NCBI GenBank assembly: GCA_016234115.1
Contig: JACRHD010000005.1
Coordinates: forward strand, 1 to 64,000
DNA length: 64,000 nucleotides
Direction: 5' to 3'
Source of the DNA: Nitrospirota bacterium
GTDB lineage: Bacteria; Nitrospirota; Thermodesulfovibrionia; UBA6902
Part shown: one piece after another, positions 12,973-33,024 of the stretch
Numbering within the stretch: the stretch's first letter is position 1
Layout: each line of letters starts with the position of its first letter
The notes under the pieces: generated by a model
The model's database searches: none
Told to the model about the DNA's origin: nothing
Seen by the model: only the letters and a program-made list of their open reading frames with translations
Position numbers and translations under genes: made by a program

Positions 12973-12981
12973 GTTTAGAGA

Positions 12982-13080
12982 TCACAGAATAATATGTTTA
13001 TCCGCAGATTCCACAGAGTAACGCATATTTATTTGATTAGATATTTCTTAATCTGAGTAATCTGTGTAATCTGTGGATTC
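12982..13080. repeat. Word-repeat dyad cassette (CAGATT / CACAG family)
   Basis: The left arm includes ATCACAG, TCCGCAGATTCCACAGAGTA; the right arm is TCTGAGTAATCTGTGTAATC plus TGTGGA. It separates the DsrE-like and tusA genes. Confidence 0.75.
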
Positions 13081-13113
13081 TTTATCTGTAAATAACCGTA
13101 AGGAGGAAACGAA

Positions 13114-13341
13114 ATGGACGCAAATAAAACGCTGGACTGCAAGGGGCTTAATTGTCCCATGCCGATTGTAAAGACAAAGAAGGCGCTCGAAACAATGAAC
13201 ACTGGAGAGGTATTGAGAATTGAGGCCACCGACAAGGGCTCAAAATCGGACATGGCCGCTTTTTCGAGCAGGACAGGTAACGAGTTGATCGAAGTTAAAG
13301 AGGAAGGCAGTACTTTTGTATATTTCATCAGGAAGAAATAG
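13114..13341 (+). CDS. tusA: TusA/SirA-like sulfurtransferase
   Basis: 75 residues, the usual TusA size. The signature LDCKGLNCPMPIVKTKKAL carries the reactive cysteine of the CPxP motif, and the remainder follows the TusA beta-alpha-beta fold (GEVLRIEATDKGSKSDMAAF). TAAGGAGG precedes the ATG. TusA-like proteins carry persulfide to tRNA thiolation, molybdenum cofactor, sulfur oxidation or, in YedE-linked forms, selenium metabolism. The neighbouring DsrE-like gene favours a sulfur relay. Which pathway it serves cannot be read from the sequence. Confidence 0.9.
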   Translation: MDANKTLDCKGLNCPMPIVKTKKALETMNTGEVLRIEATDKGSKSDMAAFSSRTGNELIEVKEEGSTFVYFIRKK

Positions 13342-17001: not shown

Positions 17002-17184
17002 ACCGTGCCTGGCGCCGGAAAAAAGCATGGTCGGAATGGTTGACTCTTTTGCGAAGTGGGCAGGGTCTCTTGATTATTATTCAGCATTTATTTATCTTAA
17101 TTGTCTAAGACTGATGGAAGTTTCAGCGACAGGACATTTCTGTGCTCCTTTGCTGGGGACTTATTCATGAAACCGGAGTCCGGT

Positions 17185-17376
17185 ATGGATTGCAGGATTG
17201 AGACCAACAAGCGAAATTGTAATTGCACATATGAACCGTGCAGCAGGAAACACAAATGCTGTGAATGCCTTCATTATCACAGAAAGAATAATGAACTGCC
17301 GGCCTGTTTCTTCAGCAAAGAACAGGAACGCACGTACGATCGTTCGATCGGCAATTTTATAAGATTAAACAGATAG
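17185..17376 (+). CDS. DUF6485-type Cys-rich small protein
   Basis: 63 residues from ATG at 17185, with GGAG seven bases upstream; an ATG at 17167 or an even earlier start is possible. The core matches the small family annotated DUF6485: NCNCTYEPCSRKHKCCECLHYHR followed by NELPACFF and ERTYDRSIGNFI. Eight cysteines in the compact core suggest a metal site (zinc or iron-sulfur). The function is unknown. It stands alone, pointing towards the tRNA gene, divergent from motAB and convergent with the GeoRSP genes. Confidence 0.8.
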   Translation: MDCRIETNKRNCNCTYEPCSRKHKCCECLHYHRKNNELPACFFSKEQERTYDRSIGNFIRLNR

Positions 17377-17599: not shown

Positions 17600-18481
17600 T
17601 TACGCGCCGGACGGGTCTTTCCGGCAGGCAGGGTCTTTTTTATCAAATGCGCCGCGCAGAACATATGTTCTTCCCCTGCAGCCGCCTTTGCAGTCATCGA
17701 CTACGGCGCATTTCCGGCATTCCTGCGGGGGCAAAGAAAGCTCTGTCCTTATCTGTCGTCTTTCACAGGATGAATAAATCTCTTTCAGGGTCCCCGTCCT
17801 GAGGCTGCCCATTGAATGAGGCAGCAGCGGACACGGAGTTACGTCAAGGGCCGGGGATATATAAATCATCGTGAATGCGCCGTTACAGCCCATTCCCTCC
17901 GGACGATCTTTATTAAAGCAGACCTTCCACAATAACGGGTCGTGAATCATCATCTTCAGTCCCTGCAGCGACATACTTTTTAACGCGCGGGAAAGCCGGT
18001 CGACTTCTTCAGGCCCGGGACAATACATATCATTTTCGCCGTTCCGTTGTATCGGGAATTCAAGCTCGGTTATCCGCTTATTAATACAGCAGGAAATAAC
18101 AGCGGGGATTTCGTGAAAATTCCTGTTGCTTACCGGAAATGAAACGCCGCCCGCTAAACTGTCCGCGACGGCTTGAAGCCTGTCTGCGGAATCCGTCTCA
18201 GTGAAGATCGATATCTTACGGTCCCGCAATATCTTTATGGCCGCGCTTTCAAGGGCATCATGCCTTACAGTCAATCTGGTCCTTATATTCGTCACGGCCA
18301 ATTTCTCCGCGATACTTGTCACAACAGCGCTCACCGGCACGGAAAGGTCCCTGAGATTAAGGACAAATATTTTGCTCTTTATCAGTTCATCGCAGACCTT
18401 TGAAACAGCAGCGTCATCATACCCGGATGGATGTATGTCCCAGTAGACAATGAAGGGGTCGATCAGATTATCAGGGTTCAT
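17600..18481 (-). CDS. GeoRSP system SPASM-domain protein
   Basis: 293 residues. The layout resembles a radical SAM/SPASM protein, but the N-terminal half has no CxxxCxxC cluster motif; it starts [16 protein letters not shown] where that motif would be. The C-terminal SPASM region is intact: [36 protein letters not shown] and a last Cys in KKDPACRKD, enough for auxiliary 4Fe-4S clusters. It overlaps the upstream radical SAM gene by 11 bases. It corresponds to the SPASM partner of the GeoRSP (Geobacter radical SAM-SPASM-PqqD) set. It probably acts as a non-catalytic partner of the radical SAM enzyme. Confidence 0.82.
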
Positions 18482-19484
18482 GCCGCCAGCAGTGCGGATC
18501 AGGGTTGTTTATATCGCCGGTAAGGGCAATCGCCCTGGCAGTGCAGCCGCCGAGACAGTCCTCATAATGGCCGCATGCGGCGCACTTGCCTTTGGGGGTC
18601 TTGTTTCTCATCTTCATCAGCAGGGGAGAATTTTTCCAGAGGTCCTTTAAGTCGTCCTTTATAATACTGCCTATCACCAACGGGATAAACCCGCAGGGCG
18701 TTATATCGCCGTTTGCCTTGATGTTCAGTGAAAGCTTTCCGCAGACGCTTCCCCGGACCATGGAACCATTTTTGCCGAGGCCCAACAGCGCGATGATGGG
18801 ATCGTCAAGAGAGATGTCCAGTCCTTCCGTTTTCTGTTTCGCGTCAAGCGCCCTGATATAAAACTCCTTCCACTCATCAGCGCTCAGATCCAGCATGTCT
18901 TTATTGGAATAGCCGAGTCCCGAACATTTGAAGTTGTGAAAATTAAGATGTTTCACTTTATGCTCAACGGCAAATTCAATCAACGCGTCGATGTCTTTAT
19001 GATTGATCCTGCAGATGACCGACGATATGGAAGTCTCAAGCCCCGCGTCATTCAGACAGGCAAGCGCCCTCACGGCCTTTGCGTGACTGCCGCCGGTCCC
19101 TCTGAAATTATCGTGCGTTTCGGCCCGGCGGCTGTCAATGCTGATCCCCACTTTTGAAAAGCCGCTCTCTTTCAATTCCGCCGCCCTCGCGCCGTCTATT
19201 AAGGACCCGTTGCTGTTCATCGAGACCACCAATCCGTTCCTCGAAGCAAAACGGGATATCTCCATCAGGTCTTTTCTCAGCAGCGGCTCTCCGCCGCCGA
19301 AATTGATCGACAGCACGCCGGCCTTTACGACGCTCTCTATGCATTTAAAAACCACCTGTATATCGAGTTCGTCAAAAGGGTCCGTCCGGCTGTAGCAGTG
19401 GCCGCATTTGAAATTACATTTGTTCGTGACCGCCCAGTTGATCGTCAGCGGAGCGGCGGGAAGAAAGTCATTCATATCTGACAT
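18471..19484 (-). CDS. GeoRSP system radical SAM/SPASM protein
   Basis: 337 residues. The AdoMet-binding 4Fe-4S motif is CNFKCGHC near residue 18-25, followed by NFGGGEPLLRKDL (the GGE motif). The TIM-barrel core continues with VSMNSNGSLID and GISIDS. The SPASM region carries CGKLSLNIKANGDITPCGF, CAACGHYEDCLGGC and a final Cys. Radical SAM/SPASM enzymes mature ribosomal peptides or proteins, often guided by PqqD-like recognition domains, and a separate PqqD gene lies directly upstream with a 17-base overlap. The substrate is unknown, and no obvious precursor peptide was found nearby. Confidence 0.9.
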   Translation of the reverse strand: MSDMNDFLPAAPLTINWAVTNKCNFKCGHCYSRTDPFDELDIQVVFKCIESVVKAGVLSINFGGGEPLLRKDLMEISRFASRNGLVVSMNSNGSLIDGARAAELKESGFSKVGISIDSRRAETHDNFRGTGGSHAKAVRALACLNDAGLETSISSVICRINHKDIDALIEFAVEHKVKHLNFHNFKCSGLGYSNKDMLDLSADEWKEFYIRALDAKQKTEGLDISLDDPIIALLGLGKNGSMVRGSVCGKLSLNIKANGDITPCGFIPLVIGSIIKDDLKDLWKNSPLLMKMRNKTPKGKCAACGHYEDCLGGCTARAIALTGDINNPDPHCWRHEP

Positions 19485-19776
19485 ACCCTTTTTCTTTCAG
19501 CTCGGACAGAAATGCCTCCGCATCTCTCTTCAGCGTCTCGGGCCCGACATCGAATGTCCCGGCAAGATCGGACACAATTTCATCAAGGGTCCTGCCTTCG
19601 CACCTTTTCCATATCTCCGTTGCAAGTACGTTGAGCGAGAGCATCATTGAGTTGTGGTATAAAACGGACGTGCCGATCCCTTCGACGTCTTCTCCCTTTT
19701 GCAGTCCTTCATATGCCCGCGCCCTGTATTCGTCCTCCTCACGCCACATGACGTCGGCGTTTCTGAATATCTTCAT
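19468..19776 (-). CDS. PqqD-family protein (GeoRSP system)
   Basis: 102 residues. The PqqD-like winged-helix signature is clear: hydrophobic LNVLATEIWKRCEGRTLDEI, then VSDLAGTFDV, then AFLSELKEKGYVRYE. Such proteins bind the leader peptide of a RiPP precursor and present it to the radical SAM enzyme. Its start overlaps the cupin stop (TGATG) and its end overlaps the radical SAM gene, so the four genes form one tightly coupled unit. Confidence 0.88.
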   Translation of the reverse strand: MKIFRNADVMWREEDEYRARAYEGLQKGEDVEGIGTSVLYHNSMMLSLNVLATEIWKRCEGRTLDEIVSDLAGTFDVGPETLKRDAEAFLSELKEKGYVRYE

Positions 19777-20102
19777 CAGTCCCCCTGAGATGTCAGGGAG
19801 GCAATGACAAGATCGTCCCCCGACGCGTTGCGGATTCCGTGCTCTGCGAGCGGGGGCACAATCACGATTTTGCCGTGCTCGACCACCTGCGACTCCCCTG
19901 CTGTCGTGAATTCACCCTTGCCCTCCATAATCATCCAGATATGATTTCCGTGATGGGTATGGGTCGTTATTTCCTGTCCGGGTTTCATGCATATAATGTT
20001 TATCTTGGAATGCTTGTCCGACCATATTGTTTCCATGTGGCGCTTTTCATCGCTGAATTTCTTGAGCTTATGGATGTCCAGTATCAAACTCTTGTTCTTC
20101 AT
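19776..20102 (-). CDS. Cupin-domain protein
   Basis: 108 residues of a single cupin. Metal-ligand motif 1 is GQEITTHTHHGNHIWMIMEG and motif 2 is PPLAEHGIRN. It probably binds a divalent metal through the His-rich segment. AGGGAC precedes the ATG. As the first gene of the GeoRSP transcript, it may act on or bind the system's product; the reaction is unknown. Confidence 0.85.
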   Translation of the reverse strand: MKNKSLILDIHKLKKFSDEKRHMETIWSDKHSKINIICMKPGQEITTHTHHGNHIWMIMEGKGEFTTAGESQVVEHGKIVIVPPLAEHGIRNASGDDLVIASLTSQGD

Positions 20103-20181: not shown

Positions 20182-22050
20182 TTATTTTATCATTCTGTAA
20201 TAATTTTCGAGTATTTCCGATGTCCGGTTGAAAAAATAAAAGGCCGCGGACACGGGGAGTTCGTCCGCATGTTCGACAGAGCCTGAAAATGTCACCCCGA
20301 ATCTCGAAGACAAGCTGTTGGCCCCGGTCCGCTGCCTGCCGGCCGCGATCAACAGTCCCTTCCCGTTATGTGAAAACCCGGATATTGTTTCCAGCTCGAC
20401 GTCGGAGAAGAGTCCCCCGGCCCCGCCCTCCCCGAAAAGTATCCATAGCTGAGAGTATTGCGCAAGCAACTCGCGCGACAACACGGGGGTCTCTTTTCTG
20501 TCCGTCACCTTCACTTTAAACCCGTCCTCCTTCTCCAGACCGTCAAGCGCGCCCTGACTGAAGGCCCCCGAATTACCCGCCGTGTTGTAAATCAATATAT
20601 CCATCATGCCTTCCGGCCCGCTGTTTTCTTCGAGCCGGGCCGCGATATTTCTTATGTATCTGCGGTTGTCATATTTGTCGGCGAGGAACCTGCCGGGACC
20701 GGAATCAAAAACAATGCCTCCATGTCCTTCCACCGAATTATCATAAGTAGCGATGGTCCCTTTTCCTCCGGGGTCCATAACGATCTTCACGTGTCTGTCG
20801 TCATGCGCCTTCGTAATAATCGCCGAGCTCCCTCCGGACACCGACCTAACGCCCCGCAAAACAGGATTGCCGGTATCCGTATACGGAGCGAACACCAGGT
20901 TCTGAAAAGACCAGGCAATGACAATCGTCCCGACAATACAGATGATCATATATAAAAAGAACACCCTCTTTCTGAAGATCGTCCAGAACATTACCATGGT
21001 AGGCATGGCCGTCACCGGACCTCCGATAAGGAAGGCGAGTCCGGCCCCTCCGTTCATGGTGCCGTCAAGGGCGCTTTTAATATGATAAAGAATGCTCGAG
21101 GCGCTGATCTGATGCAGAAATATGGGGACCGACCCCATCGTCACCCATATAATGCCGAACTTGTTTTCCTGGTTGAAAAACCTGTAAATCCATTCGTACG
21201 GCATGTATCTCTGCACAATAAGGCCTGAAGCAACTCCGATGAGGACATACTTGCCGACCAGCCAGAGCATCTCGGATGATTTTGCAAGAAAGATGAGGAA
21301 CATATTACCCGTTTTGGCCGCTACCCTGTTGCCGAATTTCTCTCTGCAATTGCATCTCAGGCGGTCGTCGGGATAATTCTCGTCATGGAAATCGCCTCTG
21401 GGGACGGCGCCCTCAATGAATATGGTTTCCGTCTGAAAACCCCTGTTCCTGACAAGATGAGTAAGGACCCCCGCAAATATCCCCATCAGCAACGCAGCAA
21501 GGGTCCGTATCACGGTCCATTCCGGGCCGAGGTCGCTCAGCGTGATCAGATACGTTGTCGGGCTCATCAGCGGGGAAGTAACAAGAAGCGCCATGACCGG
21601 CGCAAGCGGCAGGCCGGCAAACAACAGACTCACCGCGGTCGTCAAAGTGCCGCAGGCGCAGAGGGGGGTCAATATCCCTGTCAGAGACGCCAAAAAAATA
21701 CTGAGGAAACCGTACCGGTCGAGGGTCCGTCTGAGCCTGATCGCCAGCTTGTATGTTCGTATGAAGCCTGCTAAAAGTATCCCGATCATGAAATACGGCA
21801 ATATGTCCTTCAACTCTGCAAGCAACCCATGTTCGCTGAAGAACATATCCCGTATTTCATGTCCGAGTACAAGAGGAAACGGTTTTTGCGACAACCCGGG
21901 GCTTACGGCCTGACCGGTAGGACCGTAAACCCACACATGCCATGCTATAAGCAGAAAAGACGCAAATACCATAAACAGCAGCATCCTGTTGGCCCCCCTG
22001 TGGGGCGCTCCGTGGACCCTGCACCCGTTATTTTCTTTGCGATTTTCCAC
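20182..22050 (-). CDS. UPF0718/ArsP-type permease with extra C-terminal domain
   Basis: About 622 residues from a GTG at 22050 preceded by GAGGG; a TTG at 22113 would add 21 residues and overlap yedE. The N-terminal two-thirds is a permease of the DUF318/ArsP_1 type. Its first half carries LTPLCACGTLTTAVSLLFAG, and the second half has LVGKYVLIGVASG and VPIFLHQISAS. A charged loop between halves contains RCNCREKFGNR. From about residue 420 a soluble domain follows (MMDILIYNTAGNSGAFSQG, ILFGEGGAGGLFSD, GKGLLIAAGRQ). It looks like the class I glutamine-amidotransferase-like fold of GldG/DUF4350 proteins. Related permeases export organoarsenicals or other substrates; the position after yedE suggests a selenium or sulfur link. 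Confidence 0.8.
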   Translation of the reverse strand: MENRKENNGCRVHGAPHRGANRMLLFMVFASFLLIAWHVWVYGPTGQAVSPGLSQKPFPLVLGHEIRDMFFSEHGLLAELKDILPYFMIGILLAGFIRTYKLAIRLRRTLDRYGFLSIFLASLTGILTPLCACGTLTTAVSLLFAGLPLAPVMALLVTSPLMSPTTYLITLSDLGPEWTVIRTLAALLMGIFAGVLTHLVRNRGFQTETIFIEGAVPRGDFHDENYPDDRLRCNCREKFGNRVAAKTGNMFLIFLAKSSEMLWLVGKYVLIGVASGLIVQRYMPYEWIYRFFNQENKFGIIWVTMGSVPIFLHQISASSILYHIKSALDGTMNGGAGLAFLIGGPVTAMPTMVMFWTIFRKRVFFLYMIICIVGTIVIAWSFQNLVFAPYTDTGNPVLRGVRSVSGGSSAIITKAHDDRHVKIVMDPGGKGTIATYDNSVEGHGGIVFDSGPGRFLADKYDNRRYIRNIAARLEENSGPEGMMDILIYNTAGNSGAFSQGALDGLEKEDGFKVKVTDRKETPVLSRELLAQYSQLWILFGEGGAGGLFSDVELETISGFSHNGKGLLIAAGRQRTGANSLSSRFGVTFSGSVEHADELPVSAAFYFFNRTSEILENYYRMIK

Positions 22051-22081
22051 TCGGACCCTCGATTCCTCGAACCCTTGCTTT

Positions 22082-23179
22082 TCAGTCCAGGCCGGTCTGA
22101 TATTCAGGCGCAAGCCCTTTGTCTCTTTCGCGAAAGAGCAGACCCGTTATGACCAGGAAGACAATACCTGTCAGTACGGCAATCTTCCCTGGGAAAGGGA
22201 CTTCCGCTGCAGTAGCAGCAAGCCCCCAGTTCTGTACAAGGGCCCCGCCGACAAGCATGCCCATTACCGTTGCGCCCGCGTCGGTGTCGCCCTGGCCCGA
22301 AAGCACCAATTGTCTGAACGGGCATCCCTTGATAAGGACAGAGCCGAACCCGACAAGACCCATGCCGAGCACGTCCCATAAATAACTTTCAGATGGCCCC
22401 GCCTGTACAGGCATATCGACCGAGAATTGCCCGGTGAGCAGATTCGCCGCCAGCGCCGTAAGAAAGAAAGAGCCGATCGCCGTCAAAAGTCCCGTTGACT
22501 TCGGACATCCCCGGACCTCTCCCGGTCCCCATAAAAACAATCTCGCCAGCCCCCCGGTAATACAAAAGCCCGATATCTGGGCGAAAGACCCGATAAGCAG
22601 TCCGAATAACAAAGACATCCACACAGGCGCGTGGAGAGCCGCGGGACCCTTTACGCTTGTGTGTATGAACGGGACCTGAAACAACAGCAGCATGAAAAGT
22701 GCGAGCATGAAAACCGGCATGATAAAACCGTTTGCTCGCGGCGCGTCCGAGGGCCGTCCGAGCCTGAAACCTCCTTCGAGGAATTTCAGACCCGTCCACA
22801 CGCCGGCCGCAAGCCCTGTTACGCCGCTTACAGCGGAAAAATCCCCCGCAGACAACCGCAGGACCAATTTTATCGGACAGCCTATAAACACCGAGCACCC
22901 GATGATAAGCAGGATGCCGATAAAAAATCTCAGAAGCGGGGAGCCGCCCGAAGTCGTCCTGAATTCTCCTGTGGCAAGAGAGGTAAAAAAAGAACCCAGT
23001 ACAAATGCGATTATCTCCGGCCTGATGTACTGCATCCTTATATCGTCATGCAGTCCGATTGCGCCGGCTATATTTCTCATGAAGCATGAGACGCATATAC
23101 CGGTGTCGGCAGGATTTCCGGCGTAGGAAAGCAGGACCGCCCCGACGCCGAGAACGCCTCCGGCAATTATAAACTTCAT
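22082..23179 (-). CDS. yedE: YedE-family putative selenium transporter
   Basis: About 365 residues, an integral membrane protein with around ten helices. Diagnostic YedE segments are present: YAGNPADTGICVSCFMRNIAGAIGLH, GCPIKLVLRLSAGDF, AQISGFCITGGLARLFL, and WDVLGMGLVGFGSVLIKGCPFRQLVLSGQGDTDAG. The paired Gly-Cys-Pro motifs (IGCPIKL, KGCPFRQ) are typical. The ATG at 23179 directly follows the TPR gene stop; a GTG three codons earlier is possible. This YeeE/YedE branch is found mostly in selenium-using genomes and is proposed to move selenium species. That fits the probable selenoprotein at 58863-60047. Confidence 0.88.
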   Translation of the reverse strand: MKFIIAGGVLGVGAVLLSYAGNPADTGICVSCFMRNIAGAIGLHDDIRMQYIRPEIIAFVLGSFFTSLATGEFRTTSGGSPLLRFFIGILLIIGCSVFIGCPIKLVLRLSAGDFSAVSGVTGLAAGVWTGLKFLEGGFRLGRPSDAPRANGFIMPVFMLALFMLLLFQVPFIHTSVKGPAALHAPVWMSLLFGLLIGSFAQISGFCITGGLARLFLWGPGEVRGCPKSTGLLTAIGSFFLTALAANLLTGQFSVDMPVQAGPSESYLWDVLGMGLVGFGSVLIKGCPFRQLVLSGQGDTDAGATVMGMLVGGALVQNWGLAATAAEVPFPGKIAVLTGIVFLVITGLLFRERDKGLAPEYQTGLD

Positions 23180-23180
23180 C

Positions 23181-23705
23181 TTACCCACAGGACGCCGCCA
23201 GTTTTTTAATAAGATAGCGCGTGTTCTTTTTCGCCGTCTTCATATAGGGGTCATCCGGTCTGTTCGACAGGGTCTCATTTATTTTCAATTTTGCTTCTTC
23301 GACGGCAATCTTTATCTTGCGCCCCTGAAAGAGAGACGTCTTTTTGTCCAGGTAATCAGGGTTCAGGTCAACGGCTTCTCTATACTCATAAACAGCGCCC
23401 ACGGCGTCCTGCCTCCGCATCATTACATCGCCCATAAGCATATGAAGCTCTCCGTCATAAGGATATTTTCCGGTCAATTCTTTTATCAGGGCCTCGGCCT
23501 TCTGAATATTGTTCGCCTCTATCAGTCTTTTGAGTGTCCTGGTTTCCTCTTCCGCGAGGCCGCCTGCGGCGGTCGTGTTCCCCGGGCGGGTCGATGAACG
23601 CTTGATATTTTTTTCGGGACCACTGCGATATTCAGCGCTGACAACGGCAAGAGCGGCAATAAATATCAGGATAAAGACAATAGATAATTTGTCCAGCTTA
23701 TCCAT
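23181..23705 (-). CDS. Membrane-anchored TPR protein
   Basis: 174 residues from ATG at 23705. One N-terminal helix (LSIVFILIFIAALAVVSA) anchors it, followed by a linker and tetratricopeptide-like helices (EANNIQKAEALIKELTGKYP, LHMLMGDVMMRRQDAVGAV, YEYREAVDLNPDYLDK). No Shine-Dalgarno is obvious; a TATAAT-like box sits just upstream. It shares its end with yedE and may scaffold cytochrome or transporter assembly. Function unknown. Confidence 0.75.
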   Translation of the reverse strand: MDKLDKLSIVFILIFIAALAVVSAEYRSGPEKNIKRSSTRPGNTTAAGGLAEEETRTLKRLIEANNIQKAEALIKELTGKYPYDGELHMLMGDVMMRRQDAVGAVYEYREAVDLNPDYLDKKTSLFQGRKIKIAVEEAKLKINETLSNRPDDPYMKTAKKNTRYLIKKLAASCG

Positions 23706-23754
23706 AGGCAATATTATATCAATTTTGATTTGATTTGTTGTCCTTCCACTGCCG

Positions 23755-23804: not shown

Positions 23805-24707
23805 TTAATACTTCTGATACGGCGGCATATTGGTGCGTCTGGCCATATCGCGCACAATATCGTAATCCTCGTCTTTTACGTCATGAAAACCGTCAAGCCC
23901 GGCCCTTGCAAGCACCCTCACTGTTTCTCCGTCTATTTCTACCGTGTCTTCCTTTTTTAGGCCGAGCAGGGCCTTCTTGAGCTTGTGAGCGAGCGGATCG
24001 TCGGTCCTTTGCGCGGCCCCAAAAGTGCAGTAGGGGACCGGTTCTCCTTCCGCTATTATTCTGAAATCCTCGCGGTCGATCTTTCCCTCCCCGATCATCT
24101 TCTCAAAATCAAGCATCTGAAACGCTCCCGCGTCATATTTGCCGTAGAGGACGCCGTAGATGACTTTTTCATGTTTATATGTCCCGGTCGGTATCGTGTA
24201 GGACGACAGGTCCTCTTCAGGGCTTAGGCCGCCCCGGACCATCAGGTCATATTGCTGCAGGTATCCTGTCGGCGCAAGCATGGGCCCGAAAACCATGCTC
24301 TTCCCTTTCAGGTCCTTTATCCTGGTGATCCCGCTGTCTTTCCTTGTTACAATCGCCCCGTTTGATCTCGGGCCGAGGGCCCCCTGCTCATCCGCCGTCA
24401 AGGCCCTCACACCGTGATACCGGTTTAAGATTATATAGAGAAGAGAATTCGTATGGGTAAAATCCAGTCCGTCTACTTCCTTTGTAAAGTTGGTGGTATC
24501 AATAGCAACCGCCTCCATTTTAATACTTAGTTTCCTTCCGAGATAATCCGTTAAAGGTCTGAACCTGTAAAGCGTCTCTTCTTCACTATTGCAGATCATG
24601 TAACCGATTCTGTAGGTCTTCTCATCTTTGCCGACAGACGGGGCCGGCCGGCATGAGACGAGACTGATGAACAGTCCGATAAACAGCAGCGGTTTAATAA
24701 ATCTCAA
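23805..24707 (-). CDS. PhnD-like phosphate/phosphonate-type substrate-binding lipoprotein
   Basis: 300 residues. The lipoprotein signal ends LLFIGLFISLVSC with Cys19 as the lipidated residue. The type II periplasmic-binding fold follows: TYRIGYMICNSEEETLYRFRPLTDYL, a middle lobe with GAIVTRKDSGITRIKDLKGKSMVFG, and GTYKHEKVIYGVLYGKYDAGAF. PhnD relatives bind phosphonate, phosphite or arsenite (the AioX/ArxX branch). No ABC permease or ATPase gene is nearby, so a sensing or delivery role for the adjacent respiratory cluster is more likely than import. The ligand cannot be told from sequence. Confidence 0.87.
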   Translation of the reverse strand: MRFIKPLLFIGLFISLVSCRPAPSVGKDEKTYRIGYMICNSEEETLYRFRPLTDYLGRKLSIKMEAVAIDTTNFTKEVDGLDFTHTNSLLYIILNRYHGVRALTADEQGALGPRSNGAIVTRKDSGITRIKDLKGKSMVFGPMLAPTGYLQQYDLMVRGGLSPEEDLSSYTIPTGTYKHEKVIYGVLYGKYDAGAFQMLDFEKMIGEGKIDREDFRIIAEGEPVPYCTFGAAQRTDDPLAHKLKKALLGLKKEDTVEIDGETVRVLARAGLDGFHDVKDEDYDIVRDMARRTNMPPYQKY

Positions 24708-24725: not shown

Positions 24726-25634
24726 TCATGCGCGTACTTTCCCGAATAAATATAATACGCCGCCTAAAGCGACCATGCAGAACCCGAGATAAACAACAGG
24801 CGTGCCCTGGTCCCTCGTTATCTGCAGACCGACAAAGGGGTTCCTGTAAGGGTCCCTGCCGGTTGAGGTGTGAAAAAATTTCTGCCCTTCCCATTCGAGC
24901 GGGCTGTTCACTTCCGTCCTGCCTTCGGACACTATTGAGCCGTTCCTTGAAAACGCCAGGTCCACCCAGGTCCTTTTTACTACAGGGTCCACGTACGCCA
25001 CAAGCCTGAACCCGAAGGGGAAATCAGCAGGCAATTCCATCACACCTGCGGTGTCCGCATGTCCGATGAGGGTGTTCCCGCTGAAGACGCTGAGTTTCAG
25101 GCTTTGCGATCTCATATCAAACGCGTCTGCCCGTATCCGGTAATTTTCAAGGTCGAAACTCCCGCCGGTCTCAAGCACATAGAGCCCGGACTTTTCCCCG
25201 TCTCTGAGCACGCCGACCTTTACAGGCACGGGATAATATTCTTCGTGTAATCGTTTGACCGTCATATCCATCGTCAGGGGAACATCTTTTTTCATGTCCC
25301 ACCTGTAGACTGTATCGACCGTTTCGCCTTCATAGACGTTTACCGTGGCAACGTATCCGAAGGCGCCGAGCCCCCCGCCGACAAAAGATACGATTACGCC
25401 CGCGTGCATTATCACGACCGGCACGGCGAGGGTCTTTATCCTTCGCAGAGTGCACAGGACAAGGTTGACAACCAGCAGCGCAAACAGCCCCCTTATAATC
25501 TGCCATACCCAGGGCGGGGCCGCTTCGGAAAAAGTCGTGACTGTCAGCGCCGGGCAAAGTACGATAAGAAGCGCTGTTATTAATTCTTTCGATGAAAGAA
25601 AATCGTATAGCCATTTTCTACCTTTTTCAGGCAT
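24726..25634 (-). CDS. ResB/CcsB-like cytochrome c biogenesis protein
   Basis: 302 residues, shorter than full ResB (about 450). Two helices near the N-terminus (ELITALLIVLCPALTVTTF; WQIIRGLFALLVVNLVLC) and a third at AVPVVIMHAGVIVSFVGGG precede a periplasmic beta domain (NVYEGETVDTVYRWDMKKD, ...EWEGQKFFHTS). A final helix is VVYLGFCMVALGGVLYLFG. ResB works with CcsA/ResC to attach haem to CxxCH motifs; the CcsA partner is not in the window. Location downstream of the giant cytochrome suggests a dedicated assembly factor. Confidence 0.85.
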   Translation of the reverse strand: MPEKGRKWLYDFLSSKELITALLIVLCPALTVTTFSEAAPPWVWQIIRGLFALLVVNLVLCTLRRIKTLAVPVVIMHAGVIVSFVGGGLGAFGYVATVNVYEGETVDTVYRWDMKKDVPLTMDMTVKRLHEEYYPVPVKVGVLRDGEKSGLYVLETGGSFDLENYRIRADAFDMRSQSLKLSVFSGNTLIGHADTAGVMELPADFPFGFRLVAYVDPVVKRTWVDLAFSRNGSIVSEGRTEVNSPLEWEGQKFFHTSTGRDPYRNPFVGLQITRDQGTPVVYLGFCMVALGGVLYLFGKVRA

Positions 25635-25853: not shown

Positions 25854-26435
25854 TTAAATCAGTTTCTTTTTCTTTAAAAAATTCTTTGCGGCCTTACCTG
25901 CCTGCCCGTCCGCCTTGACCGCTTTGGTCATCTCACGAAAACTCTTGTCCGCCGCAATATCCGAAAGCTTGTTGATAAGCCTCGGAAGCGCGGGGAAATT
26001 AATCAGCACGTGCCCGGTTATCACGGGGGCGTAATAATATTGTCCTGCGCCGTCTTCCGTTTTCACCGCCCCAAAGGGCTTCAGCCATATCAGGTCCATC
26101 CTGTCCCTGAATTCTTTCCTCGACAGATCATAAGCCTTTACATTGTCCCCGTTGTCCGGCATGTTCAGGATCTTCAGCGCGCGTCCGGTGTCTTCAACGA
26201 CCATGCCGAGCTCATCCCTTTTTACCGCCTCGTAAATCTGCCCTGAATCACCGTAGACCCTGATGTTGACGGTCATGCCAGTCCTTTCATTTATCAGCAC
26301 CGACACCAGTTCCGCGAGAAGATTTTCATTGACCGAATTCAGGATGCCTATGTTGAGGACCTTCCCGACACAGGCGTATGAAGGGCCGGTAAAAAGCAGA
26401 AATGCAATGAGCAGGCTAATTATTATTCTTTTCAT
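25854..26435 (-). CDS. OpuAC-like periplasmic substrate-binding protein
   Basis: 193 residues from ATG at 26435, preceded by GGGGAG; a longer frame from 26489 only reads into the upstream gene. A signal peptide (KRIIISLLIAFLLFTGPSYA) precedes LNIGILNSVNENLLAELVSVL. Then come ERTGMTVNIRVYGDSGQIYEAV and GMVVEDTGRALKIL, which resemble the substrate-binding part of glycine-betaine-type ABC systems. It is shorter than a full binding protein and has no transporter genes beside it. Overlap with the upstream gene by 20 bases places it in the surface-protein operon. Ligand unknown. Confidence 0.72.
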   Translation of the reverse strand: MKRIIISLLIAFLLFTGPSYACVGKVLNIGILNSVNENLLAELVSVLINERTGMTVNIRVYGDSGQIYEAVKRDELGMVVEDTGRALKILNMPDNGDNVKAYDLSRKEFRDRMDLIWLKPFGAVKTEDGAGQYYYAPVITGHVLINFPALPRLINKLSDIAADKSFREMTKAVKADGQAGKAAKNFLKKKKLI

Positions 26436-27144
26436 CCGTCTTATTCTCCCCGGCGACAATGTCAAAACCGGCCTTGTCCGCCTCCACATTCAATTCCTTA
26501 TAAACGCTGTGACCCTGAGGCGGGAACATGCCGGCATATCCGATCGAATATTTCCCCTTCGGAAGAAACAGGCTGTAACGACCATCCCTGTCCGTCCACG
26601 CGGAGATGAAGTCGGGCAATTTATCGGAACTGCGGGATGGGTCCTCTCCTTTTCTGTTTGCAGTCACATAATACGACCGCGCCGCAGGACCGCCCTGCCC
26701 GTCCAGGACACGTCCCTCGATCTTAAAATAATCGTCTCTCGTCTTTTTCGCCAGACGCGCCGCGTCCCTGAGGTCCGCCACCGTAAAATCCGTCAAAAGC
26801 TCCCCTCCGGCTGCGAGCTCGATTTCAACCGGCCCGCCTGAATGCCGGTCTCCGGGCATAAGGGGCCCGTATTTCCCGCCCTTTCTCTCTCTGGCCACGG
26901 CCTGATATTTTCCGGCCGGAACAGTCATCCTGAAATTGCCGCCCGCGTCCGTCCGCGCCGATATGAAATCGGCAGGCCGTCTTGTATCGGAGGAATTATA
27001 AAGAAATATTCCGGCCCCCTTAACGGCCTTGCCTTCAACATCAAAGACCCGTCCCCTGAATACCGCTGTCTCGAGCGCAAAGACTTTCTGGACACCGCAC
27101 AACTGGAGCGCCGCAATCGCAATAATTATAATTACCTTATTCAT
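26416..27144 (-). CDS. Secreted carboxypeptidase-regulatory-like domain protein
   Basis: 242 residues: signal peptide (KVIIIIAIAALQLCG...VFA) then two beta-sandwich domains of the carboxypeptidase-regulatory (Cna-B-like) type. The first is FRGRVFDVEGKAVKGAGIFLY with TDAGGNFRMTVPAGKYQAVA. The second is IEGRVLDGQGGPAARSYYVT with TDRDGRYSLFLPKGKYSIGYAG. It overlaps the beta-helix gene upstream by eight bases. These domains are usually adhesive or structural modules outside the cell. Confidence 0.82.
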   Translation of the reverse strand: MNKVIIIIAIAALQLCGVQKVFALETAVFRGRVFDVEGKAVKGAGIFLYNSSDTRRPADFISARTDAGGNFRMTVPAGKYQAVARERKGGKYGPLMPGDRHSGGPVEIELAAGGELLTDFTVADLRDAARLAKKTRDDYFKIEGRVLDGQGGPAARSYYVTANRKGEDPSRSSDKLPDFISAWTDRDGRYSLFLPKGKYSIGYAGMFPPQGHSVYKELNVEADKAGFDIVAGENKTDEKNNN

Positions 27145-29695
27145 CTTTCATATCCACAGGCGCTTTCAGGTACGGCTCATAGAGGACCCTGCCGATTCCC
27201 GGCTCGTCATGTCCGTCAAAGATCGTATCGGCGGGATTTGTTCCGCACCACCAGTTCTCACGCGCGTCTATGTCCTCGGTGTTGAAATCGCCGACCCTTA
27301 CGTTGTAATTACTGTTGGAGCAGATATTATTTCTGCTGATAGTCAATCCGCTCCCTTTTTCCCTGACAAATATGCCGACTTCGTTGTTTACTATAACATT
27401 TTCCTCTATCACGGCGGTCCCGAAATGGGCCCGGATCCCTACCCTGTTTTCCCTGAAGGATGAACGTCTGACCTCGACGGGTCCGCTCCTGAAGCGTATG
27501 CCGCCTTCGTTGCCGGTGAACCGGCAGTCTGAAATTCCAAGACCGGTAAAATGACTGTGCAGGGCCCACGTCGCATGTCTGAAATCACAGAATGAAAATT
27601 CGCTCCCGTCCGCGTGCTCAAGTAATATCTCGTCCCACAGGCCGTCTTCAGTCCCGGCCCCGGAAATAAATTCTATTCTCCTGTCCGCTGTTCCGACCGC
27701 GTGTATCCTCCCTCCCGAAACCTTCAGACCCGCGCCTTTTGAGAAGGAGATCCTCGATGCAGGGGCGATCTCGAGCACGGCCCCGAAGAAATCGACCCGT
27801 TCCCTCAATGCAATATCTCCATGCCATGTAATGTCGGCAAAAACTTCCTGCGCCGGCCATATGAACGTCAAGGGTCTTTCCTTTGCCGGAGCATATAAAA
27901 CCCTGCCCTTTTGAGGGTCGTCTTCCCCGTCATAAAGCGCTGCGCCCGGCTCTTTTACGCCCCACCAGTTTGCAGGGGCGGAAATATCGGAGACGCCTTC
28001 GTTCTCTATCGCGTAAAGACCGTTGCGCTCGATGTTGTTTCCTGTGATGATACCGCTGAAGGACCGGATGCCGAGGCCCCTTTCGCCGTTTTCGGAAATA
28101 ATATTGTCTTTCAATACCGCCCCCGCGTCTTGCAGACTGAAGCCGTTCAGCCCGTTGCCCTGGACAAAATTCCCGCTGACCTCGATATTATCGACCCCTT
28201 TAAGCGATATGCCCGATTCATAGTTGTTCACGACCACATTATTGCTGAACCTGCCGTGAAAGGCGTCGCTGACCACCAGCCCGGACCTGCCGCAGCCGAT
28301 GGTATTTCCGTCAGCGACTGTAACGCCTTCCCTGATCTTGAACCCGTAATCGGCGCTGCCTGAAATTATGTTGCGTCGCGCGGTCAATTCCGCGCGGAAG
28401 AAGTTTACGCCGTTTATATTACTGAATATATAATTCCCGGTGATGACGACCTTTGAGTCCCGGCCCCTTATTCCGTTTGTGTTGCCGTAGATATGGCTGT
28501 CGCGCACCTCGACCGCGGATTCCTGAAATTGCATGCCGATGTAATTGTTTCTCAGGACCGTTTCGTTTACCATGACATTTGAGAAATGGAAGTGCAGCCC
28601 CCTGTATGCGTCCTCCACCTGGCAGAACTCCACAAGATTTTGCGCCCCGTCGCTGTTCATGATATTGATGGAATCCCAGTCCCCGGACCTTTTCTGTTTC
28701 TCGGCGGACCTGAAGATGACCGGATTTTCCATTGTGCCTTTGGCGATGAGAATACCCTGCAGCAGGATGCCGTTTTCACCCAGGCCGTCTCCGTCCGTGT
28801 CCCTGCGTTTGAATTCCACAACCGTCCCTGGCGTAATTATCAGCCTGGAGTCCTCCGGGACCCTTATTAATCCGTCGACCGTGATCCTGCCGCGCCAGAC
28901 CGTATCGCCCGACAGGACTTCATCGCCATATGATTTGACGGCCTCCGTATACTGCGCCTTATATTCCCTGATAATTTCAGCGGGCGGCCTCCCGCATGAG
29001 GCGTGATGTTTTATAAGCATCTCTTTTATTTCAGGCCCGGCCGGCGCGGGCCTCAAAACCAGCCTGCTTCCTTCGTCAAAGATGTTCAGGTCCCTCTTTC
29101 TGTTGTCCGCCATCATGCCGCCCCTGTTGTTTATCTTTGCGCCTGAAAAAGAAGATACGCCGTATTCGTTCTCCGTGACTTTCGTATTTACCATAGTGAC
29201 CGTCGTCTGCCCGCCCCAGGCCGTGAGACCGTGCCGGTTATGTTTCAGGAGCGAGTCCCTTATTTCAAGCGACCCCCCGACAATGTAAATGCCGGTTTCC
29301 GCGTTGTGGATGCCGCATGACCTTATGACTGCGGACCCGCCGTTAATAATTATCCCGGCCCATGCTTCTTTATTATTATCTCCTTTGATCCGAAAGACCA
29401 CGGGCGCTTCATCCGTCCCTTGTACTTCAAGCCTCCCCCTTATCATTATCTCGGTCGTATGCGAAATATATTCAGCCTCGCTCTTCGTCCTGTCGGAAGG
29501 CAGGACGTCCACCGTCGTTCCGGACAAAACAGTAAGTGTAACGCCTTCAGGCACAAAGACATCGTCATTTACGGTAATCTCTCCCTTCCAGACAGTGTCT
29601 CCTGTTATGGTTTCAGCCCGGCTTATTGATGGAAGAAACGCGGAAAAAAAGGTCAACAGAACAATCGGAAAAAGCCTGGTCTTCACTGAACGCAT
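27137..29695 (-). CDS. Secreted right-handed parallel beta-helix protein
   Basis: 852 residues from ATG at 29695 (MRSVKTRLFPIVLLTFF, a signal peptide); a TTG ten codons earlier is possible. Three modules each begin with a TVWKGEITV / TVWRGRITV / ITWHGDIAL strand and continue as beta-helix coils (NAETGIYIVGGSLEIRDSLL, NTNGIRGRDSKVVITGNYIF, NNEVGIFVREKGSGLTISRN). Two end with the NWWG-type cap: ANWWGVKEPGAALYDGEDDP and ENWWCGTNPADTIFDGHDEP. NosD/pectate-lyase-like folds of this kind are carbohydrate-active or structural surface proteins. No catalytic site is recognised, and a structural role is likely. Confidence 0.85.
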   Translation of the reverse strand: MRSVKTRLFPIVLLTFFSAFLPSISRAETITGDTVWKGEITVNDDVFVPEGVTLTVLSGTTVDVLPSDRTKSEAEYISHTTEIMIRGRLEVQGTDEAPVVFRIKGDNNKEAWAGIIINGGSAVIRSCGIHNAETGIYIVGGSLEIRDSLLKHNRHGLTAWGGQTTVTMVNTKVTENEYGVSSFSGAKINNRGGMMADNRKRDLNIFDEGSRLVLRPAPAGPEIKEMLIKHHASCGRPPAEIIREYKAQYTEAVKSYGDEVLSGDTVWRGRITVDGLIRVPEDSRLIITPGTVVEFKRRDTDGDGLGENGILLQGILIAKGTMENPVIFRSAEKQKRSGDWDSINIMNSDGAQNLVEFCQVEDAYRGLHFHFSNVMVNETVLRNNYIGMQFQESAVEVRDSHIYGNTNGIRGRDSKVVITGNYIFSNINGVNFFRAELTARRNIISGSADYGFKIREGVTVADGNTIGCGRSGLVVSDAFHGRFSNNVVVNNYESGISLKGVDNIEVSGNFVQGNGLNGFSLQDAGAVLKDNIISENGERGLGIRSFSGIITGNNIERNGLYAIENEGVSDISAPANWWGVKEPGAALYDGEDDPQKGRVLYAPAKERPLTFIWPAQEVFADITWHGDIALRERVDFFGAVLEIAPASRISFSKGAGLKVSGGRIHAVGTADRRIEFISGAGTEDGLWDEILLEHADGSEFSFCDFRHATWALHSHFTGLGISDCRFTGNEGGIRFRSGPVEVRRSSFRENRVGIRAHFGTAVIEENVIVNNEVGIFVREKGSGLTISRNNICSNSNYNVRVGDFNTEDIDARENWWCGTNPADTIFDGHDEPGIGRVLYEPYLKAPVDMKDE

Positions 29696-29795
29696 AGGTG
29701 TATATTTTAAGGCAACAATAAGCAAAAGGTAAATAAAAAGCCGCTGAAGACCGGCATTGTGACCTCCGACGGCCCGGCGACAGTCAGTGGTCCTT

Positions 29796-30137: not shown

Positions 30138-30974
30138 TTATGGTTTCTTTTTCTGTTCCTGCTGATTTTCCCTGGCCGCACCTGCTTCCGGCTGTCGTCC
30201 GCCGGGTCCCTTCTCCATGTGTCTGATCACTTTTATATCGACATTGCCGGTCAACTCGCCCGTCTTCACGGTCACGGGCGCAGGCATTTCTTCCCCATAC
30301 CCCCCCATTATCGCGCCGGGGACCGGAGGCCCGCCGCCGTAAACATCCCTCACTCTCAAATAATATCTGCCGCCCCTGTCGACGGTGATGATGTATTTAC
30401 CGTCTTTTCCGGTCTTATAAGAAGTAAACGGAGGTATACCGGTCATCGTCTCAGTGTAGTACGCAAATACTATCGCCCCCTCGACCGGACTGCCTGCCAT
30501 GTCATGGACCGTTCCCGATATGCCGGTAGCGTCCTCCGGGACCCTGCGCTTGTAAGGGACGGCGTCAGCAATTACGCCGATATTCAATTCCTTGTCTTTC
30601 TCAATGAGATACTGCCGCGGATTTCCCGCTTTGTCTTCGCTGATGATAAAATAATCTCCGTCCTGAGGGGGGCCCGCTTTGTCGCCTGATACCCTTTTAA
30701 TCGCCCCGAGGTAATACCTGCCCACGGGAAGCATGGTGCGGAACCTGCCCTCCGCGTCGATCCCGTCTACCCCGTCCGGGACCCTGAAGTATTTGTCGAG
30801 AGAAGGCGGCGGGCCGGTTTGGGCGTCGAAGAAAGCGATCATGCCGTTTGACATCGGACCTCCGCCCTTGATCATCATACGACCGGAGATCCAGCCTGTT
30901 TCCACTTCCGAATGAGAGTAAATTGCGGTAAATATTATTATCAGAAACGACAGCAGGACGGCCTTTTTAATCAT
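30138..30974 (-). CDS. Secreted carboxypeptidase-regulatory-like domain protein
   Basis: 278 residues. Signal peptide KKAVLLSFLIIIFTAIYSHS, then a first beta-sandwich (GWISGRMMIKGGGPMSNGMI, GRFRTMLPVGRYYLGAIKR). A second domain (ISGTVHDMAGSPVEGAIVFAYY, GKDGKYIITVDRGGRYYLRV) is followed by a Gly/Pro/Gln-rich tail ending EQKKKP. It starts one base after the stop of the larger neighbour (30976-33024), so the two are co-transcribed. Probably a periplasmic or surface adhesive partner; function unknown. Confidence 0.82.
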   Translation of the reverse strand: MIKKAVLLSFLIIIFTAIYSHSEVETGWISGRMMIKGGGPMSNGMIAFFDAQTGPPPSLDKYFRVPDGVDGIDAEGRFRTMLPVGRYYLGAIKRVSGDKAGPPQDGDYFIISEDKAGNPRQYLIEKDKELNIGVIADAVPYKRRVPEDATGISGTVHDMAGSPVEGAIVFAYYTETMTGIPPFTSYKTGKDGKYIITVDRGGRYYLRVRDVYGGGPPVPGAIMGGYGEEMPAPVTVKTGELTGNVDIKVIRHMEKGPGGRQPEAGAARENQQEQKKKP

Positions 30975-30975
30975 G

Positions 30976-33024
30976 TTACCCCCTCTCCCTTATGCCCGCG
31001 CCCTTTGCGGGGGCGACGAAATACGGTTTATAAATTACGCTTCCCAAAGAGTCATCCTCGCGCGCGTCATATATGGTATCGATGATGTCCCCGTCATCAG
31101 CGCTGCCCCACCAGTTGTCATTCAGTAAAATATCATACCCCTGCCTCTCACCCAGCCTGTAATTATAGTCCGTATTGGACTGGATATTGTTCGACATGAC
31201 GATAAATTGTCTTCCCGCGACGGTCTCTTTCTTATCGAACGTGAAGGAGAAGTCCGTTACATTCTGGTTTGAGGGCGCAAGGAAAATGCCCACACTGTTG
31301 TTTCTGATGTTGTTGTATTTTATTTCAACAGGCTCCTCTACCCTTGTATGCCTTATGCCGTACTGATTGCCGGAAATATCATTGTGGTCGACGAGAAGCT
31401 CGGCCCTGCCGAACCGTATGCCTTCCTGGTTTTTTGTGAAGACCGAATCGCTGATTACGGCCTTTGAAAAATGCGCCTGCACCCCGGTAAACGCGTATTC
31501 AAACACACAGCGCCTGATAACGCTCTCCTCACCCGAGGCGAATAAAAGGATGTAGGACCAGTCCATCGTTTCAGGCCTTTCTTCACCGGACGTAAATGTG
31601 ATTGCCCTGCCGGGGGCCCCTTCAGCCGCCAACCGTCCGCTGACCGTTATCATGGCGTCTCCCACGCCGTCGCCGTTTCTGTCTTTCTTCCTGAATTTGA
31701 CCGTCGTGCCGGGACTGATCGCAAGTGTCGCCGCCCGCGCGACATGAACGGTCCCGTCGATTATTATCTCCCCTTCCCATACGGTGTCTTTGTCTATGAC
31801 GACATCTCCACTGTAAATATGGTTGCGGACCGGCTCTGCTGCCTGCCCCTTGCCCCTTGCCCCCTGCCCCTCGACTTTCTCCCCCATCACCCTGCTTACC
31901 GCGATGTTCACGTCTTTGAGAGGACCTTCCTCTACCGCGACAAGGTGATTTGCATTGCCCTCATAAAGACCATAGTTTTCTCCCCTGACGGGCGCTTCAC
32001 CGATACGTTCTCTCGCGACGACATAATATGTTCCGCTTCCCGCGTTATCGATCAGGTAATGTCCGCTGTCGTCAGTCCTGACCATATGATCAGGCATGGT
32101 CCTGATAAAATGCATCTGGAACATTTCATTCGGTCTTGCCCTGTACATCATCACGTAAATGTCCTTCACTGGCGCCCCCTGCAGATCGGTCACTCTGCCC
32201 TGCACCCTGTTGACGTCTCCGGTTTCTTCAGGCCTGTTTTCCCTGAACCTCACGCCGTCTGCAGTGGATTTTTTTACGAGAACGGCTGAATAGGCCTTCT
32301 CGCCCAAGAAGGCCTTCAGATCGTCTTTCGGGTAACACGGGATATCGGTCCATACCCCTTTCGCATCCGTTATCGTAACGGGATTGGCCGCAAAATAACA
32401 GAACAGGTCTCCCTTTTCAAGAGGCCTCAAGCCGCCGTTCATTCTTTTCCTCGCGATAATGACGTAGTCCCCCGGCTCAGGTCCCATTTTAAATGTCCCG
32501 TCTTCGTCCGTCGTGCCGGTAAGATACCCCATGCCCTTGAAAACAGGGGCCGCGGCCCAGGGTCCGGAATTACCCGGCAGCGGATAAATTGAGACCTGCG
32601 CGCCCCTGACCGGAGAACCTTTAAAAGTCACTCTGCCGGCAAGCCCGGAAGGTGACGCTTCAGTCTTTTTGGCGGCGGTTTCGGAAACCGCCATAAAAGG
32701 TATCCACAGGTCGTTCTCCTCGATCCTGACGGGATTGGCGCCGTGATAAGAGAAATGGTCTTTTCCGTCGCTCTTACCCGAAGCGGTCATATAATAAGTC
32801 CCCGGAGGCAATTCGATTTTGTAAAATCCTTTCTTTTCCCCTGCCTCGGAAACACGAGCTGAGGCGCCCCTGAGGTCATTGAACGAGGCGGAGGCATACA
32901 CCTTTGCGTCTTCAATAAGTCCGTTTTCCGAAAGCACAACGCCCTCGACAACGGCTGAAAGAGAAATTAACGGAGAGAAAAATATCACAAGCAGGACAGA
33001 TGTTAAATAAAGCTTCAGTTTCAT
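30976..33024 (-). CDS. Carboxypeptidase-regulatory-like plus beta-helix secreted protein
   Basis: 682 residues with a signal peptide (KLYLTSVLLVIFFSPLISLSA). Residues about 25-375 hold three carboxypeptidase-regulatory-like domains (VEGVVLSENGLIEDAKVY; LAGRVTFKGSPVRGAQVSIY; VQGRVTDLQGAPVKDIYVMM). Residues about 405-680 form a beta-helix beginning DTVWEGEIIIDGTVHVA and ending with the NWWGSADDGDIIDTIYD cap. The linker EKVEGQGARGKGQAAEP between the two parts is encoded by a G-rich word repeat. It unites both domain types seen separately in the neighbours, supporting a common structure. Confidence 0.85.
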   Translation of the reverse strand: MKLKLYLTSVLLVIFFSPLISLSAVVEGVVLSENGLIEDAKVYASASFNDLRGASARVSEAGEKKGFYKIELPPGTYYMTASGKSDGKDHFSYHGANPVRIEENDLWIPFMAVSETAAKKTEASPSGLAGRVTFKGSPVRGAQVSIYPLPGNSGPWAAAPVFKGMGYLTGTTDEDGTFKMGPEPGDYVIIARKRMNGGLRPLEKGDLFCYFAANPVTITDAKGVWTDIPCYPKDDLKAFLGEKAYSAVLVKKSTADGVRFRENRPEETGDVNRVQGRVTDLQGAPVKDIYVMMYRARPNEMFQMHFIRTMPDHMVRTDDSGHYLIDNAGSGTYYVVARERIGEAPVRGENYGLYEGNANHLVAVEEGPLKDVNIAVSRVMGEKVEGQGARGKGQAAEPVRNHIYSGDVVIDKDTVWEGEIIIDGTVHVARAATLAISPGTTVKFRKKDRNGDGVGDAMITVSGRLAAEGAPGRAITFTSGEERPETMDWSYILLFASGEESVIRRCVFEYAFTGVQAHFSKAVISDSVFTKNQEGIRFGRAELLVDHNDISGNQYGIRHTRVEEPVEIKYNNIRNNSVGIFLAPSNQNVTDFSFTFDKKETVAGRQFIVMSNNIQSNTDYNYRLGERQGYDILLNDNWWGSADDGDIIDTIYDAREDDSLGSVIYKPYFVAPAKGAGIRERG
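31841..31872. repeat. G-rich word repeat inside coding sequence
   Basis: GGGGCAGGGGGCAAGGGGCA (minus-strand sense) continues with another GGGGCAGG and encodes the linker GQGARGKGQAAEP. It looks like half of a word-repeat cassette, similar in style to the one in lpxI. Confidence 0.65.

Follow-up and report, generated by a model that had tools for sequence, protein, structure and literature searches.

A conserved VHPC-ending peptide family as candidate precursor of the GeoRSP radical SAM system in Nitrospirota and the class of Geobacter

Analysis of a 64,000-nucleotide stretch of a Nitrospirota genome (contig JACRHD010000005.1 of assembly GCA_016234115.1, hereafter the window) revealed a 20-codon ORF, MKKIKYVPPKIVGRAAVHPC, encoded in the same co-directional array as the GeoRSP radical SAM genes, and the family to which it belongs is, in our opinion with little doubt, the GeoRSP precursor. 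Most probably, GeoRSP is a RiPP system whose products are VHPC-derived peptides with a link to extracellular multiheme cytochromes. The explanation taken as a whole, an RRE-dependent RiPP-type GeoRSP with a VHPC precursor that serves a secreted cytochrome apparatus, appears probable to us, and a direct role of the peptide product with the cytochromes, suggested by the gene neighbourhood, is put forward more tentatively.

The GeoRSP genes and the array that contains them

An initial annotation of this DNA had described four overlapping genes for a cupin, a PqqD-like protein, a radical SAM/SPASM enzyme (rSAM) and a SPASM protein lacking the CxxxCxxC motif. These genes are real, lie on the minus strand with overlaps of 11, 17 and 1 bases, and are the final four of a longer minus-strand array (Table 1). 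Two of them score above the cut-offs of curated NCBIfam profiles, PqqD with 134.2 bits on TIGR04302 (cut-off 100) and the rSAM with 548.8 bits on TIGR04303 (cut-off 400). Aligned with positions 2-293 of the 293 of TIGR04304, the SPASM protein scores 199.2 bits (E 7.5e-59), below the cut-off of 300; since it is homologous yet falls short of the NCBI threshold, we describe the three genes as GeoRSP-type, their SPASM partner being divergent. The gene order PqqD-rSAM-SPASM is that of GeoRSP as defined by the three profiles, and the present analysis extends this picture by a precursor family and a setting of 12 genes.

Table 1. Features of the window, with positions counted from its first nucleotide.
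Feature	Position	Strand	Evidence or remark
DUF6485 protein	17101..17376	opposite to the array	Rejected as substrate candidate
SPASM protein, pseudo-radical-SAM/SPASM partner	17600..18481	-	TIGR04304 199 bits; without CxxxCxxC, all SPASM cysteines present
Radical SAM/SPASM enzyme (rSAM)	18471..19484	-	TIGR04303 549 bits; CxxxCxxC = C23/C27/C30
PqqD-like RiPP recognition element (RRE)	19468..19776	-	TIGR04302 134 bits; AF2 model
Cupin	19776..20102	-	Cupin_2 52 bits; invariant His48, His50, His54, His88
ArsP/SO_0444-like permease with C-terminal domain; possible exporter	20182..22113	-	Profile matches, operon position
YedE-family (putative sulfur/selenium) transporter	22082..23188	-	TIGR04112 372 bits, cut-off 200
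TPR protein of the conserved operon	23181..23711	-	Profile matches
PhnD-like periplasmic binding lipoprotein	23805..24707	-	Phosphonate-bd 147 bits
ResB-like membrane protein	24726..25634	-	ResB 40 bits, cut-off 24.6
Small secreted protein, conserved, family c6, weakly binding-protein-like	25854..26489	-	
CarboxypepD_reg secreted protein, family c2	26416..27144	-	
NosD-like right-handed beta-helix protein	27137..29725	-	
Candidate precursor-peptide ORF MKKIKYVPPKIVGRAAVHPC, 20 codons	30031..30093	-	Shine-Dalgarno AGGAGGT just before ATG
CarboxypepD_reg protein, family c2, adjoining the peptide gene	30138..30974	-	
CarboxypepD_reg + NosD-like protein	30976..33024	-	
Fibronectin-III/SBBP protein, 2433 aa	33077..40378	-	C terminus ...GDGTCN
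Multiheme c-type cytochrome, 1695 aa	40383..45470	-	32 CxxCH; tail ...QKWNNVTEW

An alignment of 21 sequences showed that C23, C27 and C30 of the rSAM are invariant together with C248, C264, C301, C304, C310 and C314, and with its SPASM Pfam domain the enzyme has the cysteine complement of a radical SAM/SPASM maturase; among solved structures, its profile is closest to PqqE, SkfB and SuiB. The absence of CxxxCxxC from the SPASM protein was borne out, and C199, C217, C255, C258, C264, C268 and C286 are retained. Its structural model has a complete radical-SAM/SPASM fold (pLDDT 88.6) that superposes on PqqE with a Z score of 17.5 and an rmsd of 4.1 over 274 aligned residues. Judged from this model and the missing SAM-cluster motif, the partner is a pseudo-radical-SAM fold, a putative dead paralogue of the rSAM, perhaps acting as substrate partner or electron-transfer partner. 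It is similar to pseudo-radical-SAM proteins such as TIGR04347, which are SPASM proteins with the SAM cluster motif lost, and differs from them in being, to go by sequence, conserved as the companion of an apparently active rSAM and PqqD. The SPASM protein was not found at loci L108-L112 and L117, although the genomes there carry the peptide.

A scan of named genomes yielded 76 further GeoRSP loci, mostly from Nitrospirota/Thermodesulfovibrionia and Geobacteraceae, in which genes were re-called and compared using HMMs built from the first 25 loci; operon counts were restricted to the window and these 76 loci because L034-L057 and L058-L133 share genomes. Across the 77 loci, many of which are cut by contig ends, PqqD was found in 73, the SPASM protein in 66 and the cupin in 43, together with genes for NosD-like (55), c2 (53), YedE (50), c6 (49), ResB-like (48), PhnD-like (48), permease (47) and TPR (44) proteins. 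The cupin, described initially as an addition to the system, is not a stray extra: it always stands between the ArsP-like permease and PqqD, the order permease-cupin-PqqD being kept in all 43 cupin-bearing loci. Its residues H48, H50, H54 and H88 are identical in 43 of 43 sequences and make up the histidine set of a metal-binding cupin. When only loci with at least 7 kb of upstream sequence are counted (59), permease and cupin occur without NicO in 36, NicO and c11 without permease or cupin in 12, permease, cupin and NicO together in one, the permease alone in three and none of these genes in seven.

Two further observations concern the window itself. DsrE2-like and TusA-like sulfur-carrier genes lie near the operon on the plus strand (12493-13341), and a link with the YedE transporter is possible. 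Positions 75-911 are repetitive, with long overlapping ORFs on both strands, and probably represent a tandem repeat rather than a gene.

A short conserved ORF with a leader-like half

The initial annotation had found no visible precursor, having looked only between and beside the four core genes; MKKIKYVPPKIVGRAAVHPC is encoded further off, in the same co-directional array some 10 kb upstream of PqqD. The operon gaps and flanks of the 77 loci were searched for ORFs of 18-140 codons, which were clustered by blastp with no preset motif; the top cluster was a peptide of about 20 residues (ten ORFs from nine loci), with a VHPC end in seven of the eight members printed. A DNA pattern describing this family has one match in the window and none in 100 shuffles. 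Family members have 17-20 residues, roughly M-K-K-x-x-Y-x-x-P-x-[VI]-V-G-x-x-x-V-H-P-C, and no matching model was found in NCBIfam or Pfam. When loci lacking a VHPC copy were searched with relaxed criteria, a single clear variant emerged, MKKHTYVRPRVVASAEVYPC in L079.

Pattern matches in the fetched loci amounted to 92 non-duplicate copies, four of 96 having been dropped as duplicates; L078 and L130, which have no leader motif, were removed from the set of 76 matches. The start codon is ATG in 82 of the 92 copies, and a Shine-Dalgarno-like word of at least four letters is present in 82 of 92. Identity between close pairs is 81% over the 48 coding nucleotides versus 29% over the 48 nucleotides downstream (468 pairs), and third positions take 54% of the differences in codons free of the pattern (450 pairs). 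Counting back from the C-terminal V-H-P-C, Tyr occupies position -15 in 80 of 81 distinct peptides, Pro -12 in 81, Val/Ile -10 in 78 and Gly/Ala -8 in 81, an invariance that is partly by construction because a genome match is possible only with Y, P, G/A and VHPC in place; the clustering of gap ORFs was independent of the pattern.

The DUF6485 protein, proposed earlier as a weak substrate candidate, was discarded: it was found in the window only, and comparison with 24 other loci brought up no relative.

The first part of MKKIKYVPPKIVGRAAVHPC, with its YxxPxVxG motif, is predicted to be the leader (MKKIKYVPPKIVG), followed by a predicted core that ends in VHPC. The Tyr-x-x-Pro-x-Val-x-Gly half resembles, at the level of the sequence, the leader motif of lasso-peptide RREs: according to a section of PMC12710340, YxxP is a characterised leader motif of lasso peptides that is read by the RRE, and an excerpt of PMC10368454 gives the lasso leader motif as YxxPxL. 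The fold of the PqqD-like protein points in the same direction. Its AF2 model (pLDDT 95.5) has as best PDB match 5v1v, TbiB1 with bound leader (E 2.8e-4, TM 0.75/0.86), followed by 6jx3, another lasso B1 protein with leader, and then by PqqD 5sxy; TbiB1 is also the best PDB match by sequence alone, though a weak one (E 0.064). The window thus shares with lasso leader/B1 pairs such as TbiA/TbiB1 the RRE fold and a YxxPx[L/V] leader motif, and differs from them in a core that ends in VHPC and in its radical SAM enzyme; the scanned operon genes include neither an asparagine-synthetase-like cyclase nor a transglutaminase-like peptidase. The combination of a PqqD-like RRE fold with an associated short precursor gene is that of an RRE-dependent RiPP pathway.

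The PQQ (PqqA/D/E) and mycofactocin (MftA/B/C) pathways are also comparable, as they join a PqqD-type RRE and a SPASM radical SAM enzyme to a short peptide, and PqqE is the nearest solved structure to the window rSAM by profile. The precursor motifs of these pathways are Glu/Tyr in PqqA and a C-terminal Val-Tyr in MftA; the GeoRSP peptide has a different motif, occurs in many copies per genome and is encoded alongside cytochromes.

Association of the peptide with GeoRSP enzymes across genomes

As the initial annotation had proposed, small ORFs were examined for co-occurrence with GeoRSP genes, and the result is the one that it had named as a refutation, a consistently associated candidate precursor elsewhere. 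Among 395 genomes of the window's phylum, where PqqD was called at E 1e-10 or better, PqqD was found in 25 and the peptide pattern in 28 (both in 23, PqqD only in two, peptide only in five, neither in 365), so that the peptide occurs in 23 of 25 PqqD genomes versus 5 of 370 without PqqD. The 244 genomes of the class of Geobacter gave PqqD in 77, only 32 of which exceed the curated GeoRSP cut-off, and the pattern in 83 (both in 75, PqqD only in two, peptide only in eight, neither in 159), or 75 of 77 PqqD genomes versus 8 of 167 others. The reversed pattern, used as a control, had no match in any listed genome of either group. Fisher values are 2.7e-30 and 7.9e-51, respectively, and overstate the evidence because the genomes are related; the association holds in each of two distinct groups and across several gene orders. 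In the class of Geobacter, at least 35 of the 77 genomes with PqqD have a pattern match that begins 1046-1218 nt beyond PqqD and on its strand, which is the spot just behind the rSAM gene of about 1 kb, and at L117, L122, L125 and L261 the peptide directly follows the rSAM or lies between rSAM and SPASM genes. Behind the named GeoRSP loci, the pattern was present in 40 of 50 genomes (50 of the 76 loci) and absent from 10.

Thirteen genomes carry the peptide with no PqqD match (five in the window's phylum, eight in the class of Geobacter), and in five such genomes tested no GeoRSP rSAM exceeded the cut-off. One of them, G063, has a partial SPASM-type match some 1.1 kb away from the peptide, where the contig ends, a hint that the locus is cut there; assembly gaps likely explain some of the peptide-only genomes. 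Conversely, PqqD genomes G158, G297, G403 and G467 lack the pattern, and a looser look at stretches of these four genomes gave no convincing peptide.

A short ORF of this kind could instead be a regulatory upstream ORF or ribosome-arrest peptide that controls secreted proteins and is not a GeoRSP substrate, as suggested by its small size, its strongly conserved C terminus, its strong ribosome-binding site and the presence of a co-directional gene within 150 nt downstream in 38 of 90 copies. We regard this as very unlikely, as 22 of the 90 copies are followed by a gene of opposite orientation and another 30 have their next gene more than 150 nt away, the peptide tracks PqqD across genomes and directly follows the rSAM in many, and Tyr-x-x-Pro is a leader-type motif. 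The data support the reading of the core genes as a peptide-modifying system, already made in the initial annotation.

Secreted cytochromes and a proposed maturation pathway

The neighbours of the 92 copies were compared with 326 control gene positions, which were drawn solely from five genomes in the class of Geobacter, the peptides being from both groups. With this difference in sampling, a multiheme gene (5 or more CxxCH) lies among the three upstream co-directional genes in 33 of 92 copies versus 14 of 326 controls and immediately upstream in 24 versus 6, and a c2 protein is encoded at most two genes away in 51 of 92 copies versus none of the controls. At least one multiheme, c2, NosD-like or rSAM neighbour was found for 77 of the 92 copies and none for 15. 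The peptide reaches 15 copies in genome G263, the maximum, and 11 in G321, often alternating as peptide-c2-peptide-c2. We also noted, in these two genomes, up to five peptide-CarboxypepD_reg pairs in tandem (L168, L172, L173, L175), whose peptides carry an extra Cys (SVCVHPC) and whose c2 proteins often end in ...VVPGY.

A WNxKTPW-like C-terminal tail with a W...W end occurs in 21 of 45 peptide-adjacent cytochromes versus 3 of 28 other multiheme genes of the same loci, the window cytochrome ending in WNNVTEW. Once matches with TGG as last codon, which the tail pattern let through, had been filtered, 15 of the 395 genomes of the phylum had WNxxTPW before a stop, and 14 of these 15 also carry the peptide; the loosest tail, WNxxTxW*, is found in 51 genomes, 18 of them with the peptide. 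One tail expression that was tuned after the data had been seen is excluded from the evidence. Giant cytochromes of the window and of L165, L184, L185, L264, L265, L271 and L278 have in common WNx(K/V)T(P/E/Q)W before the stop, and this tail resembles an independent signal for sorting, docking or capping. Another C-terminal feature, the near-terminal Cys tail GD(G/E/K)TC(N/E/Q), ends large fibronectin/SBBP proteins in the window (33077-40378), L184, L185 and L281; the window protein with this tail is encoded between the cytochrome and the peptide.

The secreted proteins could themselves be the true substrate (CarboxypepD_reg, NosD-like or WNxxTPW-tailed cytochrome), with the peptide as a carrier or joined to them, and the alternation of CarboxypepD_reg and peptide genes at L168 and L175, the excess of W...W tails near the peptide and the 14 WNxxTPW* genomes with the peptide all agree with such a scheme. 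PqqD and rSAM of known systems work in the cytoplasm, whereas these candidates, to go by their families and N termini, are probably exported, and we therefore hold this possibility to be just as improbable as that of a regulatory ORF. Least probable of all, by a little, is action of the rSAM/SPASM pair on a tetrapyrrole or another small molecule, with the peptide belonging to something else in the same regulon: outside GeoRSP, the rSAM scores highest in NCBIfam against NirJ2 (188 bits) and AhbD (186 bits), ahead of mycofactocin MftC (161) and PqqE (125), and the operon encodes a ResB-like protein and cytochromes, but 73 of the 77 loci have a PqqD-type RRE, the PqqD model fits leader-bound RREs best, and PqqE, SkfB and SuiB are the top solved structures for the rSAM profile.

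For GeoRSP as a RiPP system with a VHPC precursor, we propose the following pathway. The PqqD-like protein would capture the Y-x-x-P-x-V-x-G leader half and hand the peptide to the radical SAM/SPASM enzyme, which would be assisted in most loci by the SAM-less dead paralogue with its SPASM clusters. The rSAM would act at the VHPC end of the peptide, where the C-terminal Cys might undergo thioether or decarboxylative chemistry or Val or His might be changed, and the cupin may contribute an optional step, oxidation or metal binding. No leader peptidase was recognised in the operon. The product may be exported by the ArsP-like permease, or by NicO/MFS proteins in other loci, and would be used by the secreted giant multiheme cytochromes and the CarboxypepD_reg/NosD-like apparatus.

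Among the matches listed from the open-access literature, we found nothing on the GeoRSP system or on a VHPC radical-SAM peptide, and no paper linking a radical-SAM peptide product with giant multiheme cytochromes. TIGR04302 is absent from the main text of PMC12710340 and PMC7470986, and GeoRSP from that of PMC7470986.

GeoRSP has been a named enzyme system without a known substrate, and now has a specific 20-residue candidate. The genes around the peptide connect a radical-SAM peptide product with giant multiheme cytochromes, and we suggest, as a speculation that may well prove wrong, that these peptides form a new RiPP class for extracellular electron transfer. Each VHPC peptide, encoded with its own giant cytochrome or CarboxypepD_reg protein and matured by a single PqqD/rSAM/pseudo-rSAM unit, might serve WNxxTPW-tailed cytochromes as a ligand, cap or cross-link that is redox-active or binds metal. 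The candidate, common to two bacterial groups rich in multiheme cytochromes, makes GeoRSP directly testable.
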